Notes under the pieces: model-generated | Seen by the model: only the letters and a program-made list of their open reading frames with translations | Told to the model about the DNA's origin: nothing | Database searches by the model: none | IMG/VR virus record: IMGVR_UViG_3300046000_006960 | Span: 1 to 53,760 of that record | Direction: 5' to 3' (one strand) | Source of the DNA: a virus | Length of the DNA: 53,760 bases | Position numbers and translations under genes: made by a program | Part shown: positions 3,579 through 48,257 of the stretch, in pieces | How the letters are laid out: each line of letters starts with the position of its first letter | Numbering within the stretch: position 1 is the stretch's first letter

Positions 3579-5606
3579 TTAATTTTTATTATTTGGATAT
3601 TTAGTAAGCAATTGAGAAGGTTTTACGCCTCTTTTTATTGCTCTATAATTTAATGCTTGTTGAGCATCGCTATCACTATTATATCTTGCTGCTAATTCTT
3701 TATTTGTTAAATCAGCATAGGCATTATTTACTAGTGAAGTATAAACTTCTTGTCCTTGAAAGTTGCCAGTAATTCCATTAACTGTTCCTTTGTTTTTATA
3801 AAAATTAGCAATAGCTCCTGTTAAATTTTTATAACCTGGAGCAGAACCAGTATCTGCTGAATTTGTAAATCTTTTTAATTTAAATGTCACAGTAACTTGT
3901 TTTTTAGAACCTCCATATTCATCTTTACGCTTAACGCCTTGAGTGTCATACTCATTTGCGTCTTCATTGGTAGTAAATACAGCAGTAATTTCTGGAGATT
4001 TATTGTCTCCATATGTTTTTATATTACTTATTTTAAAAGATTTTTGATCTGAATTTTTAAGTAAATCTTGAATATTAGCAACATCTTCATCGGTCACATC
4101 TTTTCTAAAGCCTCCAGTAGTTTGAACGCCAGTTAAATCTAGAACGCTAGATATATTTGGAATTCCTTTTAATACCGTGGCAACATTTTCATTATGTAGA
4201 TTCCACTCTCCCTCTTCTTTAGGAGTAGACGGCATGTAAGAATAATTATGTCTTAAAGAAGATGATTTTTGCCAAGCATCGTTTTTAAGTTTTTTTCTTT
4301 GTGATAAAATTTTATCCATATAAGATAAATCTTTATCTTGCATTATTAATTTTAAATCAGGATCAGATTGCTTTCCTTTAAAAGACCCTACGCCTTTACT
4401 AAATAACAATCTAGGTAAAATACTTGGATCTTTTTTAACCGCAATAACTTCTTCTTGAGTCATATTCATTTTTTTAGCAAGTCTTTCCCATTTTGAATAT
4501 TCTTTTTTAAATGTTATGTCGTTGGCTTTGTAATCTTTGTTTTGAGTTAACTTAGCATCTGCTTCTCTTCTTAATTCAATTAAATCATCTAACTTTGCTT
4601 GATCTGCAGGATTTAAGCTTTTAGAACTAGACAATCTTTTTATTTCACTTAATACGTCTGAATATTCTTCATAATTAGTAGCGTCGCTTTTTATTTCAGT
4701 ATCGTTGCTAATTATTTGCCCAGCAGGACCTTCTTCGTCAGATTTTTCAGGTTTTGGAGGAGCGTTATAGTTTGCACTTTCAGATATTTTATTAATGTCT
4801 GAATTTTCAAGCATTGAATTAAAGTCATTAATAATTCTATCTTTATTTAATCCTATTCCAGCATGTGTCGCCCATTTTTTACCCTCGCCATTTGGATTGT
4901 CCCATGTATCCAATGCTGAATTAAGTGCAGCTTGAACTTGATCAGTGTTTTTAGATTTAATTCTATCTCCATTTCTAGTAACTTCCCAAAAACTACCATC
5001 AGGACCATATTCTAAATGATGTCCAGCTGAAGAAATTCCCTCAATAGTTTTTCCTAATATTGAATGAGCTCTAGATAAATACTGACCATAATCTTGATAA
5101 GCAGGAGCTCCAAGAGGTTCTATGTTTGTAATTTTACCATCTTTAAATCCAGTATAATTATTCTCAACATAATTGTTCCAATTTTTTTCAGCTTGATCTT
5201 TTCCTATTTTAGAAACTTCAGTTGCATTTTTTATGTAATCATCATGTTCTTTGTTAAAAATAGCTTTTGCTGCATTTATTTTACCAAATTCTCCCATAGG
5301 AGAAACTAAATCTTGATACTTTCTATTTAAAGCAATTGTTTTACCAATCATATCATTGTTTATTCCGTGCTTAGATAATTCAGTAGCAGTATTATCTAAT
5401 TCTGACTCAATACCTTTTTTTAATTCTAAAGCTGTGTCATAATGAAATTTCAATGGATCAACTTTCGCTATACCAGCTCTTATTAATTCGTTTTCAGCTA
5501 ATAATTTATCATGCTTTTCACGTTTCATCATTGGAACAAAAGCTAATTCCTGCATAGTTTGAGGAGTATATCCTGAAACTGTAATATCATCATAACGATT
5601 ACTCAT
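3579..5606 (-). CDS. Large internal virion protein, 675 aa
   Basis: A soluble, strongly charged 675-residue protein with Lys/Glu-rich helical stretches and no membrane segment or recognisable enzyme motif. The N-terminus (SNRYDDITVSGYTPQTMQEL) resembles the start of crAss-like cargo/tail proteins that lie between the large tail protein and the virion RNA polymerase; this is recognition by position and style, not a search result. Its start overlaps the end of the GIY-YIG endonuclease gene by 8 bp, and the giant protein follows 2 nt downstream. The likely role is packaging in the capsid and ejection with DNA. Confidence 0.65.
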   Translation of the reverse strand: MSNRYDDITVSGYTPQTMQELAFVPMMKREKHDKLLAENELIRAGIAKVDPLKFHYDTALELKKGIESELDNTATELSKHGINNDMIGKTIALNRKYQDLVSPMGEFGKINAAKAIFNKEHDDYIKNATEVSKIGKDQAEKNWNNYVENNYTGFKDGKITNIEPLGAPAYQDYGQYLSRAHSILGKTIEGISSAGHHLEYGPDGSFWEVTRNGDRIKSKNTDQVQAALNSALDTWDNPNGEGKKWATHAGIGLNKDRIINDFNSMLENSDINKISESANYNAPPKPEKSDEEGPAGQIISNDTEIKSDATNYEEYSDVLSEIKRLSSSKSLNPADQAKLDDLIELRREADAKLTQNKDYKANDITFKKEYSKWERLAKKMNMTQEEVIAVKKDPSILPRLLFSKGVGSFKGKQSDPDLKLIMQDKDLSYMDKILSQRKKLKNDAWQKSSSLRHNYSYMPSTPKEEGEWNLHNENVATVLKGIPNISSVLDLTGVQTTGGFRKDVTDEDVANIQDLLKNSDQKSFKISNIKTYGDNKSPEITAVFTTNEDANEYDTQGVKRKDEYGGSKKQVTVTFKLKRFTNSADTGSAPGYKNLTGAIANFYKNKGTVNGITGNFQGQEVYTSLVNNAYADLTNKELAARYNSDSDAQQALNYRAIKRGVKPSQLLTKYPNNKN

Positions 5607-6159
5607 CTTTCAAAAATTTAAATGTTGTTTTATTTTTTTTAATACCATTAATTTGTTGACCAAAAGAACTGTAATTAAAATTATTTTCTAAAGCACATTG
5701 TCTAACAGAACTCCAAATTTTACCAGTAACAGTGCAAATTATTTTTTTAGCTTGACCATTATTTTTTATCATCTTTTCAACATGTTCTTTTGATAATTTT
5801 TTATTTTTCCAAAATCTTAATGGATTTTTTAATAAAAAATCAGATTTTATTTTTTTAGTTTTTTCAGAAACAATCATTCCAAAATTTCCATCACCACCAT
5901 CTGTAAGATTACACAATACACCTGTACTGTTATTTATTCTACCATAATGATAAATTAAAATAATTTCTAATTCAATAGCATCTTCTTTTGATAAGTTTGA
6001 TTTTAATATTTGGATTTCATAATCTGATTTACTTACAATTTTTTTCCAAAAATTACTTCTACCATATTTAATATATGGTCTTTTTTTATTTCCAATACCA
6101 ATATAAAACACTTGATTGTTATCTAATCTCATGTGTCTATATATACAATAATCATTCAT
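5599..6159 (-). CDS. Free-standing GIY-YIG homing endonuclease (first of three)
   Basis: A 186-residue GIY-YIG nuclease. The catalytic module is at residues about 3-80: a Y-x-Y (YCIYRH) and Y-I-G (VFYIGIG) pair, followed by the Glu-containing helix (KEDAIELEIILIYHYGR). A NUMOD3-like segment (SEKTKKIKSDFLLKNP, SKEHVEKM) follows. The C-terminal DNA-binding helix region ends KNKTTFKFLKD. The same end (KNKT-x-x-x-FL) closes the two other GIY-YIG proteins in the window. It is inserted between two virion genes, overlapping both by one to eight bases. It probably cleaves relatives lacking it and spreads by repair. Confidence 0.88.
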   Translation of the reverse strand: MNDYCIYRHMRLDNNQVFYIGIGNKKRPYIKYGRSNFWKKIVSKSDYEIQILKSNLSKEDAIELEIILIYHYGRINNSTGVLCNLTDGGDGNFGMIVSEKTKKIKSDFLLKNPLRFWKNKKLSKEHVEKMIKNNGQAKKIICTVTGKIWSSVRQCALENNFNYSSFGQQINGIKKNKTTFKFLKDE

Positions 6160-14700: not shown

Positions 14701-15387
14701 TTAATGTAAATATTGTATTGTTGTTTTATTTTTTCTATAACCTCTTAAATATTTTGATAACATTTTCATAGGTATATTTAAATCATTAGCACACTCTGTA
14801 ATTGAGTTCCAAATTTTATTTGTTTCAATACATATTACTTTTTTAGACATTTTATTTTCTCCTAATTTTTTTCCAACATTTGAAAACTTTTCATTTTTTC
14901 TAGCAATACTGAGTATTTCTTTATGTTCTTCTGATATTATTTTTCCTTTATTACTAAAAGATATTTTTAATTTAGTTTCATCTGAACAAGGTCTAGTTTT
15001 CATAAAATTACTTATTTGCAACCTTCGCTCAATTGAATTTCTTTTAACTCCTTTATTACCTAAACTTATTTTCTGTTTAGTTTCATTTGATAATTTCCCA
15101 GATTTATCACATGTTTCAGTAAGCTTACAATTTAAACCTTTTACACTTAAAACATCATAATAATCCTGCCAATATCTTTCTTTTTCATTAAGAACATTTA
15201 TATCACATTCTTCAACTATTTCAAATTTATGGCTGTCTATTCCATATTTTAAAAAAGATAATTTAAGTCTTTTATGTGATTTATTTTGATTTATATTTTT
15301 ATAAGAAGAAAATCTTCTATCAATATCAACACTTTGTCCAATATAAATTCTATTTTTTGGAGATATTATTTTATATATTCCTATCAT
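14701..15387 (-). CDS. Free-standing GIY-YIG homing endonuclease with NUMOD3 repeats (second of three)
   Basis: A 228-residue protein with a textbook GIY-YIG core: GIYKI at residues 3-7, YIGQS at 16-20 and R24/R25 nearby, with the catalytic Glu helix in NVLNEKERYWQDYYD. Two or three NUMOD3 motifs follow (SNETKQKISLGNKG, SDETKLKISFSNKG, SEEHKEIL). The C-terminus (TNKIWNSITECANDL, then KNKTTIQYLH) is a helix-turn-helix-like DNA-binding module shared with the other two. Its ATG overlaps the TGA of the upstream connector-type gene (ATGA), so it is translationally coupled to a late gene. Confidence 0.93.
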   Translation of the reverse strand: MIGIYKIISPKNRIYIGQSVDIDRRFSSYKNINQNKSHKRLKLSFLKYGIDSHKFEIVEECDINVLNEKERYWQDYYDVLSVKGLNCKLTETCDKSGKLSNETKQKISLGNKGVKRNSIERRLQISNFMKTRPCSDETKLKISFSNKGKIISEEHKEILSIARKNEKFSNVGKKLGENKMSKKVICIETNKIWNSITECANDLNIPMKMLSKYLRGYRKNKTTIQYLH

Positions 15388-17392: not shown

Positions 17393-18325
17393 TTATTTAT
17401 TTAATATGTATTTGTTGTAATTAGTATTTGACATTTCAAACATTCTGTTATTATCTAAATCTTTCATAATTCTTTTAATTGTTCCAGTATTTGTAGTTAC
17501 TGTTTTAATCAATTGTAGATTGTAATTTCCAGATACAGGAGAACTATATTTTACTTCATCATTTAACACTCCAACATGCAATCTTGGATTATCTAGATAC
17601 TGCAACTCGTTATAAACTTTTTCAAGCTGCCTAACATCTTCATCGCAATAATCTAACATATCTTTCATAGCCTCTCTGTCATTCAACATAACCACTTTAT
17701 TCCACAAATCTGGAGTTGTTTGAATTTTTCCTTCAAAACCTAAAAATTTAGAAATATAATCTAGTCTGTTTGAGTTTAAATAAAGTTTAGCTTTTGCAAC
17801 CTTTAAAGTATCAAATTGTTTGTAATTTGGAAGCATTGGTATTCTATGAAATAGAGCTCTAGTTTTTAACCATTTAATATCAAAGTTATCTCCGTTGTGA
17901 GCCACTATTAAATCAGCTTCGTTTAAAACTTCTACAAATTGTTCTATTAAGAATTTATCACATTGTTTATTATCCCATGTTAAATTATAAACCTCATCTT
18001 CGCCTTGCCATTTATAAGAAATACATATAATTGCTCTTTCTTTAATAATTTGATTAGGCATTATGTTTTGTTTATAACCAGCTCTCCAGAACCATCCTAT
18101 GTTAGGACTTGTTTCTAAATCGTATATTAACACTTTAGCTGTTTTAGTTTTTATTTTTAAGGATGTATTCTTAATTTCTTGATTGCATTCTCTTAAGGCT
18201 ATTTTGCAGTTTCCAACTGTAGTTTCAAACCCTTTACTTCTTAAATGATTTCTAAGTCTTTTAGATCCTTCTTTTAAATAACCTGGTTTTGCAATTAAAA
18301 AAGCTTTTATTTCTTGTAAATTCAT
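17393..18325 (-). CDS. DnaQ/PolB-like 3'-5' exonuclease, 310 aa
   Basis: A DEDD-family 3'-5' exonuclease. The three motifs are visible: Exo I DLETS at about residue 69-73 (LIYDLETSPNIG), Exo II HNGDNFDIKWL at about 143-153, and Exo III YCDEDVRQLEKVY at about 226-238. The N-terminal 60 residues are extra and unassigned. There is no polymerase domain at 310 residues, so it is a stand-alone nuclease that would degrade DNA in replication, repair or host takeover. It is an odd neighbour for virion genes. It has its own promoter of the spacer-conserved class (18350-18380) and its own terminator, so it forms a one-gene unit and is probably expressed earlier than the surrounding genes. Confidence 0.85.
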   Translation of the reverse strand: MNLQEIKAFLIAKPGYLKEGSKRLRNHLRSKGFETTVGNCKIALRECNQEIKNTSLKIKTKTAKVLIYDLETSPNIGWFWRAGYKQNIMPNQIIKERAIICISYKWQGEDEVYNLTWDNKQCDKFLIEQFVEVLNEADLIVAHNGDNFDIKWLKTRALFHRIPMLPNYKQFDTLKVAKAKLYLNSNRLDYISKFLGFEGKIQTTPDLWNKVVMLNDREAMKDMLDYCDEDVRQLEKVYNELQYLDNPRLHVGVLNDEVKYSSPVSGNYNLQLIKTVTTNTGTIKRIMKDLDNNRMFEMSNTNYNKYILNK

Positions 18326-18349: not shown

Positions 18350-18380
18350 CAAAGTTACAACAAATATTTGACATTTCCAA
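18350..18380 (-). promoter_or_regulatory. Bacteroidota-type promoter, conserved-spacer class
   Basis: On the minus strand: TTG, 20 bp, TAACTTTG. The spacer carries TGTCA and, directly before the -7 element, TTTGTTG. The same spacer words occur at 43386-43416 and 43820-43850. It is placed to transcribe the exonuclease gene. Confidence 0.75.
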
Positions 18381-18995: not shown

Positions 18996-19498
18996 TATTT
19001 AGGTAGTCTTTTTATAACAGATTTCATTACCTGTTTTAATTGTTCTGCATAATCAGGAGCGGTTGCGTAACCAGCCTTTGCGATTTCATCAAAAAATAAC
19101 GTAGGTGTATTTTTTACTTTTATAGCTTTTGCGTATCTAGGATTCTTTAAAAAGAAATTAACATGATCTGTAAATGCTAGCTCAGCAGAAGGATATTTTC
19201 TAAAATAATCTTTTACTGTATACTTAAATTTATTTCCTGCTTTTACAATTTTTAATATTACAGGAAACTTAACTTTATCAGTAGACAAATACTCCGTTGT
19301 TGTAATTAATTGCTCATTACCATTTACTCCATCAGTATCTTTAATACCAAAGAAGTTGTTTCCCACAGCCTTCTGACCCCAGCCACTCTCAAGCGCACCC
19401 TGAGTCAGAGGTATGAGGTAATGAAATCCTGTTTTAGCCTCTACTTTTTTAGCTTCTGGCAAATATGTTTTTACAAATTCTTCTGGTGTAATATTCAT
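18995..19498 (-). CDS. Glucosaminidase-type endolysin (GH73/FlgJ-like), 167 aa
   Basis: A single-domain peptidoglycan hydrolase. The N-terminal block (PEEFVKTYLPEAKKVEAKTG, then LIPLTQGALESGWG) carries the catalytic Glu in ALESGWG at about residue 38. NNFFGIK and the later YPSAELAFTDHVNFFL block are typical of the GH73 mannosyl-glycoprotein endo-beta-N-acetylglucosaminidase fold. The length of 167 residues equals one catalytic domain with no binding module and no signal peptide, so a holin is needed to release it. It overlaps the GIY-YIG stop (ATGA) and abuts the membrane protein gene. Confidence 0.88.
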   Translation of the reverse strand: MNITPEEFVKTYLPEAKKVEAKTGFHYLIPLTQGALESGWGQKAVGNNFFGIKDTDGVNGNEQLITTTEYLSTDKVKFPVILKIVKAGNKFKYTVKDYFRKYPSAELAFTDHVNFFLKNPRYAKAIKVKNTPTLFFDEIAKAGYATAPDYAEQLKQVMKSVIKRLPK

Positions 19499-20109
19499 AT
19501 TAAAAATTTTAAAGATGTTTTATTTTTATTTTGTCCTATTAACATTGCTGTTAAAGTTGTTCTTTTCATATTAAAAAATTCAGCAGCTATAGAGGAACTT
19601 TCAAATATTTTATTTGTACAAGTATCTATTACTTTTTTAGCAGATGGATTTTTACCTCCTTTAGTAGCTTTTGAAATATTAGATCTCCATTCATTAGAAA
19701 ATACCTTACCTTTCATCCAAATGTTTTTACCTTTAAAGGCTTTTGATCTTTTTTGTTTTTCATCATCAGACATTTTATGTCCAGAACAACCTTTCCCTCC
19801 TTTAGATATATTACATAATTTATTTCCAGATTTTATGTAATAATCAATCCAATAAATTTCTCTGTCTTCCCATTTTTCTAAACACTCTTCTATTATTTCC
19901 ATAATTGGTTTTTTACCATCTTTTAAAAAAGTTAATAACCAGTTTGATAAATGTTTACTTTTTGAGTTTAATTGTATTTTGTAATTAGAATGTTGTATAT
20001 ATCTTTTTTTTGGCTCAATAGATTTTCCAACATATTTAATTTCTAATGTATCTGGATGTTTTAATATATAAATATATGTAATTTTATTATCACATTCTTC
20101 TGGTGTCAT
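19495..20109 (-). CDS. Free-standing GIY-YIG homing endonuclease inside the lysis cassette (third of three)
   Basis: A 204-residue protein with the GIY-YIG core as YIYIL (residues 12-16) and YVGKS (26-30), then KKRYIQH and the catalytic Glu helix (CLEKWEDREIYWIDYY). NUMOD3-like segments (SDDEKQKRSKAFKGKN, SNEWRSNISKATKG) follow. The C-terminal module ends KNKTSLKFL as in the other two. It is wedged between the coiled-coil membrane protein and the endolysin, overlapping the endolysin start as ATGA, so it is coupled to lysis-gene translation. Confidence 0.92.
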   Translation of the reverse strand: MTPEECDNKITYIYILKHPDTLEIKYVGKSIEPKKRYIQHSNYKIQLNSKSKHLSNWLLTFLKDGKKPIMEIIEECLEKWEDREIYWIDYYIKSGNKLCNISKGGKGCSGHKMSDDEKQKRSKAFKGKNIWMKGKVFSNEWRSNISKATKGGKNPSAKKVIDTCTNKIFESSSIAAEFFNMKRTTLTAMLIGQNKNKTSLKFLI

Positions 20110-43385: not shown

Positions 43386-43416
43386 CAAAGATACAACAAA
43401 TAAATGACATATGCAA
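43386..43416 (-). promoter_or_regulatory. Bacteroidota-type promoter, conserved-spacer class, start of the leftward operon
   Basis: On the minus strand: TTG, 20 bp, TATCTTTG, with TGTCA and TTTGTTG inside the spacer. It drives the overlapping small genes from 43360 leftwards. Confidence 0.8.
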
Positions 43417-43463
43417 GTTTTTTTGCAATTATTTTTAAAAAAAGTGAAAATAATTTAAAAGGC

Positions 43464-43500
43464 ATAAAAAAACCCACTAAAACAATAAGTTAAAGTGGGT
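43464..43500 (-). terminator. Intrinsic terminator of the minus-strand ncRNA
   Basis: On the minus strand a perfect 7-bp stem ACCCACT/AGTGGGT is followed by seven T. It lies downstream of the 43820-43850 promoter with only non-coding sequence between, and upstream of the next promoter. Confidence 0.82.
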
Positions 43501-43815
43501 GTAATAAAAGTAATTGCAATTTAGCCCTGTCTTTTTTAGACTGTCCAGACTACTTTATCTTAAACATAAGTTTCCTATAACTATAACGTTGTTATAAGTT
43601 TACTTTAAATAGTTATTTAATTAATATATATGGCGAGGTTTCCCACAAAACTGTTGTTCTGCAGAAACCCTTGGCTTACCAGTGTTATTGAAGTCGTCAT
43701 ACCTCGCTAAACCCGTACCTACATTATCTATCCTCTTTTGCCCTGGACTGTGATTGCAATAATCACTATAATGTAGCAACAATATCCTTAATAAGTTGCC
43801 TGTTTATTTTACTGA
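43464..43815 (-). ncRNA. Candidate structured ncRNA, about 345 nt, family unknown
   Basis: No plausible gene lies here, but a promoter and a terminator bracket it on the minus strand. Pairings visible are: CTACATTAT/ATAATGTAG (43719-43727 with 43768-43776, 9 bp) enclosing a GTGATT/AATCAC hairpin (43750-43766); GCGAGGT/ACCTCGC (43633-43639 with 43701-43707); a 200-nt long-range GTCCAG/CTGGAC pairing (43543-43548 with 43743-43748); TATAAC/GTTATA (43582-43596); and GTCT/AGAC (43529-43541). These nest without clash. I looked for RNase P, 6S and tmRNA signatures and found none. Transcription start is estimated from the promoter. Confidence 0.65.
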
Positions 43816-43819
43816 GCCA

Positions 43820-43850
43820 CAAAGATACAACATTTATTTGACAAATCCAA
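43820..43850 (-). promoter_or_regulatory. Bacteroidota-type promoter for the ncRNA, conserved-spacer class
   Basis: On the minus strand: TTG, 20 bp, TATCTTTG, with spacer words TGTCA and TGTTG as in the two other members of this class. Directly downstream is the structured non-coding stretch. Confidence 0.8.
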
Positions 43851-43953
43851 ATTTTTTAGTAACTATTTTCATATATTTTATATTACCTATAGCTTTTATT
43901 GTAAAAAATATTTTTTAAAAAAATTTTTCAAAACGTTTTTTATTAATGTAAGA

Positions 43954-44032
43954 GTGAGATAACCCAACATCATGCCCCGACCTTTTTCAAATTTTGGGAT
44001 ATACCCGTGGCTTTTTGCTACAGGTATCTCAC
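43954..44032 (+). promoter_or_regulatory. Multi-helix structured leader before the 154-aa gene
   Basis: GTGAGATA pairs perfectly with TATCTCAC, closing a 79-nt element. Inside are hairpins GGG-ATATA-CCC and GTGGC-TTTTT-GCTAC plus further CCC/GGG pairing possibilities. It lies 85 nt ahead of the start of the 154-residue gene. It could be a regulatory leader, an RNA-processing element or a free RNA. It does not match any riboswitch I can recall. Confidence 0.5.
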
Positions 44033-44046
44033 AAATTGTCTAACTT

Positions 44047-44076
44047 GAATAATACGCGATGAATCAGCGATTATTC
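44047..44076 (+). repeat. Perfect inverted repeat in the leader
   Basis: GAATAAT/ATTATTC with inner CGC/GCG forms a 10-pair hairpin with one bulged base on each side. It is 41 nt ahead of the ATG at 44117 and may act in mRNA stability or as an operator. Confidence 0.5.
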
Positions 44077-44116
44077 TACAAAACAAAGCAGGCGTGCTTA
44101 ATAATACGTTATAGTT

Positions 44117-46819: not shown

Positions 46820-47435
46820 GAAAGACCAAGGTTGGTAAATAGTAGTTCGCGGGAGAGCACCTACTTTAAAAATAGCGATCCCATCATGGGGGTGCCTGGT
46901 TTTGACAGGTTACTAATAATTAATACAATCAGCCAGAGAGATAACTGTAAACTAAGGTGAATTAAATAAACGACAAAAATACAACAGCTCAAACAAGAGC
47001 AAACATGCAAGTGGTTCATAACATCTTAAATGGTGGAACTTCAGTATCAACAGAAATGTTGATTGCTGCGTAATATTTTTAGATTATTTTAAGGATTTCC
47101 TTGTTAGATTAAACAAGGTGGTGGAATCACTGATTAATCAGTTGACCTCGTGTATCTAAACACATAAAACTATAGTGAAGCTGTATAAATTGTATTAAGG
47201 AATGTAATTTGGACGGGAGTTTGAGAACGGACTCACTATGTAGGGATATGTAGTTAAAAATTGGAAGAATTGCTGGAACACTAAAGCCATTTAGGTATGT
47301 ACAAAATTACAGTACACTAAGTAGTCAATCAGCAGCCGAGCTTACTGGCGGAAGTAAGAAGGTTCAACGACTAGGGAATCTAAGGATAGCCCACAGCCTC
47401 CAACACCTAGAACAGGTGATGATATAGTCTAATCA

Positions 47436-47855
47436 CTAGTGAAAACTAGTGCAGAAAAATAGCCTTTCATAAGCTAATTTTCTATCGTATTCTATTATAG
47501 AATATTTACCATTCTTTTTAGTTACAATATTATGATACTTTAATATAGTATTGATTCTATGTAATTTTTTAGAATGATGAGAATTTAATAATTCACAAAG
47601 CTTGTAACATACTTGATTGCTACTTGCAGATAAAGAATAGCCAATAGAATGGCTTGTCTTTTTAGCTGGTTTTGTACTGATTGAAAGTTTTAAATTATAA
47701 TTTAACAATAAATATTGTTGAATTTCTAATAAAAGATTTTTATCAGTATTTGTAAAATCAATTTTAATACAACGAAATTTGTCATCTTTAGATTGATAAG
47801 ACATTGTAATTGAGCCATCTGCATCAAAAAAACCTGAAATGTAATTTAAGTCCAT
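47436..47855 (-). CDS. LAGLIDADG homing endonuclease inside the tmRNA intron, 139 aa
   Basis: A single-motif LAGLIDADG protein. The motif is LNYISGFFDADGSITM at residues 3-18, with the catalytic Asp in the DADGS part. The later LSASSNQVCYKLCELLNSH and YHNIVTKKNGKYSII segments fit the family. At 139 residues with one motif it must act as a homodimer. It is read opposite to the tmRNA, from its own promoter, and its stop codon falls inside the intron's P9 hairpin. It presumably cuts intron-less ssrA T-loop sequences. Confidence 0.9.
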   Translation of the reverse strand: MDLNYISGFFDADGSITMSYQSKDDKFRCIKIDFTNTDKNLLLEIQQYLLLNYNLKLSISTKPAKKTSHSIGYSLSASSNQVCYKLCELLNSHHSKKLHRINTILKYHNIVTKKNGKYSIIEYDRKLAYERLFFCTSFH

Positions 47856-47889
47856 AATAATAGGATAAGGGTTATATATACGTTAGGTG

Positions 47890-47920
47890 CAAATATACAA
47901 AATTTAATTACAAAAAACAA
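47890..47920 (-). promoter_or_regulatory. Bacteroidota-type promoter of the intron endonuclease
   Basis: On the minus strand: TTG, 20 bp, TATATTTG, 35 nt ahead of the endonuclease ATG and wholly inside the intron. It makes the endonuclease independent of tmRNA transcription. Confidence 0.75.
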
Positions 47921-47986
47921 GTAAATGTTAAATTATTTTATAATAATTTTTATAATGAATTATAAATGCGATTCTCCCCACCTCCA

Positions 47987-48257
47987 CTATATTTAATCTC
48001 TAAAATGGCAGAGAATAGGATTATATTAAAGTCACTGCATCCACTAACGATAATTGTATTTATATACAATTGTTTATTAAGTCTAAATCAGTCTAAACAA
48101 TATAATGCAAATTTGTGAGCAGTACGCCACTCACTTAAATAGAACAAAATTAAGGGTCTTAATAAATGTTAAAGATATTGAATCTGTCTATTATATATAG
48201 ACCCTTATTTTTTAAATTATAAATTATAACAAAATTATTAACTAACAATTAAATATT
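47987..48257 (+). other. Non-coding stretch after tmRNA with hairpins and a terminator-like element
   Basis: No gene. It contains an AATTGTA/TACAATT hairpin near 48054-48073, a GTGAG...CTCAC arm at about 48115-48134, and AAGGGTCT (48152-48159) pairing with AGACCCTT (48199-48206) followed by ATTTTTT. The last is a terminator-like stem with an unusually long 39-nt interior and could end tmRNA transcription. Confidence 0.5.

Follow-up and report, generated by a model that had tools for sequence, protein, structure and literature searches.

A pseudoknotted RNA at the divergence point of crAss-like phage genomes as a probable stand-alone non-coding gene

What lies at the point where the leftward and rightward genes of a crAss-like phage diverge? 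The DNA analyzed here (the window, 53,760 nucleotides) is a 53.8-kb virus record of a crAss-like phage, whose terminase shares 39–42% identity with the terminases of Steigviridae from the gut and of other crAss-like phages, and 46–91% with those of 80 environmental contigs. Leftward of about 43.4 kb are found the structural block, the terminase and a chaperonin, all transcribed leftward; rightward of it, the genes run mostly rightward. Exactly at this divergence point is a non-coding unit on the minus strand (43851–43460), consisting of a promoter, about 350 nt without a conserved ORF, and a hairpin terminator. To our knowledge, the non-coding RNAs of crAss-like phages are almost unexplored. 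A review of the Crassvirales names tRNAs and no other non-coding RNA (PMC10136315), and no description of the present RNA was located in the literature. The unit is most probably a stand-alone structured RNA gene with a host-type promoter, its own terminator and a pseudoknotted core, acting in trans and carried as a cassette in a fixed slot.

The promoter (43820–43851, minus strand; TTTGGATTTGTCAAATAAATGTTGTATCTTTG) contains TTTG as its -33-like element and TATCTTTG as its -7-like element. The Bacteroidota promoter consensus is TAnnTTTG with an upstream TTTG (PMC7366714), and the motif falls into the primary-sigma (sigma-ABfr) class of these bacteria, with TAnnTTTG at -7 and TTTG near -33 of a predicted start site. 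The window contains three instances of the extended motif (0.01 expected). The two other near-matches are at 18380–18350, preceding an ORF with detected exonuclease domains (17393–18325), and at 43416–43386, where a separate minus-strand promoter of the leftward operon is located downstream of the RNA terminator. The bare TTTG-n-TAnnTTTG pattern is weakly enriched (8 versus 3.8 expected, with 4 of 100 shuffles reaching 8). The intrinsic terminator (43464–43499, minus strand) is a CCCACT...AGTGGG hairpin followed by seven T residues (CCCACTTTAACTTATTGTTTTAGTGGG + TTTTTTT; -13.7 kcal/mol). From the positions of promoter and terminator, the transcript is predicted to span 43460–43813 on the minus strand. 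A sequence-only reading of the window had proposed a complete non-coding unit of this kind, with a minus-strand host-type promoter of the same class as those of the leftward operon and the exonuclease, about 345 nt without a gene, and a clean terminator; each of these parts was found, and the whole arrangement of promoter, RNA and terminator is repeated in relatives, together with strong covariation.

Relatives of the RNA occur in more than 20 environmental crAss-like phage contigs, as a single copy per contig. A blastn search of 80 terminase-related loci with the RNA gave about 18 real matches, and a pattern built on the best-conserved stretch revealed additional copies in IMG/VR. A covariance model built on ten copies (R1) produced 27 hits in 60 sources, the window scoring 168 bits (E 3.9e-29). 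Twenty of 50 whole records were positive, with one copy each; many terminase relatives thus lack the RNA, which indicates that it is not essential to the group. The same model, which recovers these 20 phage records, gave no hit in 395 Bacteroidota genomes, nor in the eight phage genomes crAss001, phi14:2, cr126_1, DAC15, bajarodcaudo virus 1, cr106_1, cr108_1 and MA9V-1. DNA similarity searches against 50,697 phage records returned promoter matches only, or nothing, and no match to the RNA; protein-based searches with both flanking genes retrieved no relatives, and a second pattern, on hairpin P1 (below), did not extend the family to more distant members (E 0.07 for the best new hit). A scan of bacterial genome contigs with the first pattern gave eight hits, which were all rejected because their sequence resembles chance matches within coding DNA.

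The RNA is oriented along the strand of the terminase block in all loci, with opposite-strand genes beyond it wherever the locus extends far enough. The promoter is retained in nearly all of the 21 distinct copies, and TAnnTTTG is located 25–28 nt upstream of the RNA core in 18 of them. A hairpin followed by a T-run is present in 20 of the 21 despite differing sequence, the exception being L010.

The 21 copies were aligned manually by structure, since an automated fold (MAFFT/RNAalifold) missed most of stem P2 and cannot represent a pseudoknot. The conserved structured core, as defined by model R1 (43608–43799, about 190 nt; this and all elements below are on the minus strand), has a predicted fold, fixed by covariation, of P1, P2 and P3/P4 plus a pseudoknot whose two parts join the P1 loop to the internal loop of P3. 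Hairpin P1 (43776–43799) has the form GCAAC-[14-nt loop]-GTTG(C); its stem is invariant in the 21 sequences, so its pairing is assigned by complementarity, without covariation support of its own. The P2 arm (43719–43776) follows just 3' of P1 and is closed by CTACATTAT/ATAATGTAG. Its five scored pairs are paired in 105 of 105 cells with three to five pair types each, a count slightly biased toward pairing by the two registers given to the P2 3' strand in the alignment, and its tip differs entirely between relatives, being rebuilt in each subtype. An invariant linker, GGGUUU (43709–43714), is located between P2 and the P3 stem (GCGAGGU/ACCUCGC, 43633–43707), which encloses a conserved internal loop (AUGACRACUUC...CCAAG) and hairpin P4 (43669–43644), the latter predicted by folding each relative. 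In P3, 95.2% of cells are paired and three pairs have changed on both sides. The first part of the pseudoknot (PK1) pairs AUU of the P1 loop (43781–43783) with AAU of the P3 internal loop (43689–43687), and the second (PK2) pairs UUAUU (43790–43794) with GGUAA (43680–43676) of the same two loops. Both are paired in 21 of 21 copies, with changes on both sides in three of three and three of five pairs, respectively, and PK2 lengthens to 8 bp in L058-type RNAs, as read from their sequences. The invariant loops of the RNA are GACRACUUC, GGGUUU and GGAAACC. A GGUUU/AAGCC pairing suggested by visual inspection was discarded, as it is nearly invariant and overlaps PK2.

A structure-blind scan of all column pairs against a tree-based null gave the highest ranks to pairs within P3 and P2, and it also returned the P1-loop/P3-internal-loop pairs of PK1 and PK2, which had not been expected. 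E was below 0.2 for some pairs only, with several pseudoknot pairs at 0.9–9. Taken together, the scored helices are paired in 98.6% of cells, compared to 77.1% (sd 1.3) in shuffled alignments and 30–45% for slid partners. The covariation score is 0.642 versus 0.230 in shuffles (reached by 0 of 500), and 14 of 24 pairs show changes on both sides (119 cells versus 40.8 in shuffles), counts that include related copies and hence changes that are not all independent events. The fold is fixed by evolution to the base pair, and the predicted loop–loop pseudoknot is directly testable by mutation.

The sequence-only reading had described a different architecture, with nested long-range helices including one spanning 200 nt, and had named covariation at the same locus as a check. 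The RNA does fold better than shuffled sequences (z = -3.05, 0 of 100 shuffles), and its minimum-energy fold contains such helices, among them 43802–43778 with 43546–43572. However, they are not conserved: their 3' strand lies in a tail and an optional module of about 58 nt that are missing from most relatives, and their 5' strand is already used by P1 and the covariation-supported pseudoknot. Loss of the helices in relatives, which the reading had itself named as refuting, applies to the 200-nt helix, whereas another set, the pseudoknotted one, is conserved very well. The optional module of the 3' part (AGTAGTCTGGACAGTCTAAAAAAGACAGGGCTAAATTGCAATTACTT, about 43506–43562, within the region 43500–43570, minus strand; ends approximate, from sequence comparison) was found elsewhere only in L119 (11965–12025) and its duplicate L133.

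A folded RNA followed by a terminator is also the classic layout of a cis-acting leader, such as a riboswitch or attenuator, that would gate passage through the terminator into the leftward operon, and the L010 copy lacks a terminator and is directed toward an ORF. This reading is unlikely, since 19 of the 21 loci have a further TAnnTTTG motif ahead of the next ORF, the first downstream gene varies among the phages that carry the RNA, and the sequence and distance of the terminator vary freely among relatives. A tRNA can also share the unit, as in L016, where a tRNA-Thr is inserted between the promoter TAnnTTTG and the RNA.

Comparison of the loci showed that the RNA behaves as a cassette which phages exchange at one fixed site. 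Identities of RNA and terminase are nearly uncorrelated (r = 0.17 for 14 phages): L022 and L028 share 98% identity in the terminase and 59% in the RNA, whereas L058 and L028 share 71% and 97%, respectively. In L060, L062 and L211, the slot with the same promoter region is occupied by another structured RNA of about 300 nt (L060:2955–3255, L062:955–1250, L211:7860–8110; minus strand). It resembles the R1 RNA in slot, promoter region, a like terminator and compensatory changes (five pairs with changes on both sides, from three sequences) and differs from it in sequence and fold; it is absent from Rfam, and in L060 it is followed by an ORF with a T5orf172/MUG113 domain (L060:3267–3809). Phages L049 and L060 share 99% identity across 18 kb, and 93–96% upstream, yet between the shared promoter and the like terminator L049 contains the R1 RNA and L060 the alternative RNA plus the T5orf172 ORF. 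Three further loci, all without the R1 RNA, contain unusually long gene-free stretches of 0.7–1.4 kb near the divergence point (L072:1258–2618, L077:498–1918 and L048:802–1536), which may hold further RNAs.

The strong discordance between RNA and terminase similarity, together with the T5orf172-domain ORF of the alternative cassette, could also reflect selfish spread, by a mobile RNA element or the remnant of an intron. This is likewise unlikely, since the R1 cassette contains no endonuclease, interrupts no gene, matches neither group I nor group II introns in Rfam, and is found at one site in one orientation with its promoter and terminator (20 of 21) kept. A transcript that primes DNA synthesis at the divergence point, as a replication primer or origin element, is hardly more than a slim prospect: its position is fixed and the cumulative GC-skew minimum of the window falls here, but a skew change is expected anyway where the gene strand switches, the RNA is missing in many relatives, and an unrelated RNA replaces it in a near-identical phage. 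That the conservation reflects a short protein opened by AUGACRACUUC (MTTSITL.SQ...) is very improbable because, although 20 of 21 copies have an AUG with an MTTS-starting ORF, L058 has ACG in place of the start codon, the ORF varies from 11 to 97 codons, its reading frames shift within P4, and the variable nucleotides of the shared ORF part covary with the P1 loop.

The RNA is therefore best described as a structured non-coding RNA gene, with its own promoter and terminator, no conserved ORF and compensatory changes; it is neither an mRNA nor an intron, nor does it serve as leader to the following gene. No known family had been recognized by the sequence-only reading, and a search of Rfam 15 at the gathering threshold, with the window and six relatives, gave no match at the RNA, the best hits being at chance level (E 0.2–5.8). 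Neither ARAGORN nor Rfam detected a tRNA or tmRNA at the RNA; the true tRNAs and the tmRNA are located elsewhere. Known stand-alone RNAs of phages and bacteria that are large and structured, and whose function is not obvious, include GOLLD, ROOL and OLE; in contrast to these, the present RNA has no Rfam match, a core of only about 190 nt and another architecture. In the Steigviridae phages crAss001 and cr126_1, a comparable position upstream of the block with the small genes and the terminase is occupied by about 20 tRNA genes, likewise non-coding and encoded on the same strand; compared to tRNAs, the RNA is larger, pseudoknotted and devoid of an acceptor stem or T-loop. A tmRNA is encoded by the same phage clade on the opposite strand, at a distance of a few kb, but it is a separate gene, and the RNA has no tRNA-like domain or conserved tag ORF. 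We class the RNA as a new family within phage-encoded structured RNAs, a known general kind, and not as categorically new, because no new mechanism is demonstrated.

The gene boundaries (by consensus), fold, conservation, site and cassette exchange are results of computation; a mode of action can be proposed from them. The host-type promoter suggests that host RNA polymerase would transcribe the RNA, presumably early in infection, and its terminator would stop transcription ahead of the leftward operon, for which another promoter is present. The compact fold, with its pseudoknot and invariant loops, suggests binding or catalysis in trans, and the folded RNA would most likely act by binding a protein or the translation machinery. 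Its association with tRNAs, and with a tmRNA encoded by these phages, points to a role in translation or RNA processing, although the argument from the tRNA slot is positional. The replacement of one RNA type by another in phages that are otherwise alike points to host adaptation and would also fit a role in defence. Since tRNAs also occur in the slot and the type of RNA changes without regard to the phage backbone, we tentatively guess that the partner is a host factor in translation, RNA processing or defence. Once worked out, this partner could show how phages handle host translation or defence. It is also possible, though doubtful, that the RNA represents a new phage RNA class, perhaps catalytic or a decoy or RNP scaffold, whose cassettes are swapped to suit the host at a dedicated "RNA slot"; the fixed site at the divergence point holds tRNAs, the R1 RNA or an unrelated structured RNA in related phages.

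The tmRNA gene of the window (46888–47990, plus strand; Rfam tmRNA 21.9 bits, E 3.7e-6) is interrupted within the T-loop by an insert of 747 nt (47222–47968). The insert has group I-like features (an upstream U, a terminal G and the motifs GTTCAACGACTA and GATGATATAGTC) and contains, on the opposite strand, a LAGLIDADG endonuclease ORF (47436–47855; Pfam E 2e-9). Joining the flanks restores GGGAG-TTCGATT-CTCCC, and the relatives L058 and L119 contain unsplit tmRNAs. Group I introns in the T-loop are known from bacterial tmRNAs (PMC11915505); here, in contrast, the split gene is phage-borne.

Close to the RNA, a plus-strand region of about 180 nt (43935–44116) that precedes a rightward 154-residue gene contains several inverted-repeat-like stretches (e.g. 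AATAATACGCGATGAATCAGCGATTATT); it may represent a structured 5' UTR of that gene. Three minus-strand ORFs amid the structural genes (5599–6159, 14701–15387 and 19495–20109) look, from their sequences (e.g. MIGIYKIISPKNRIYIGQSVD), like GIY-YIG homing endonucleases.
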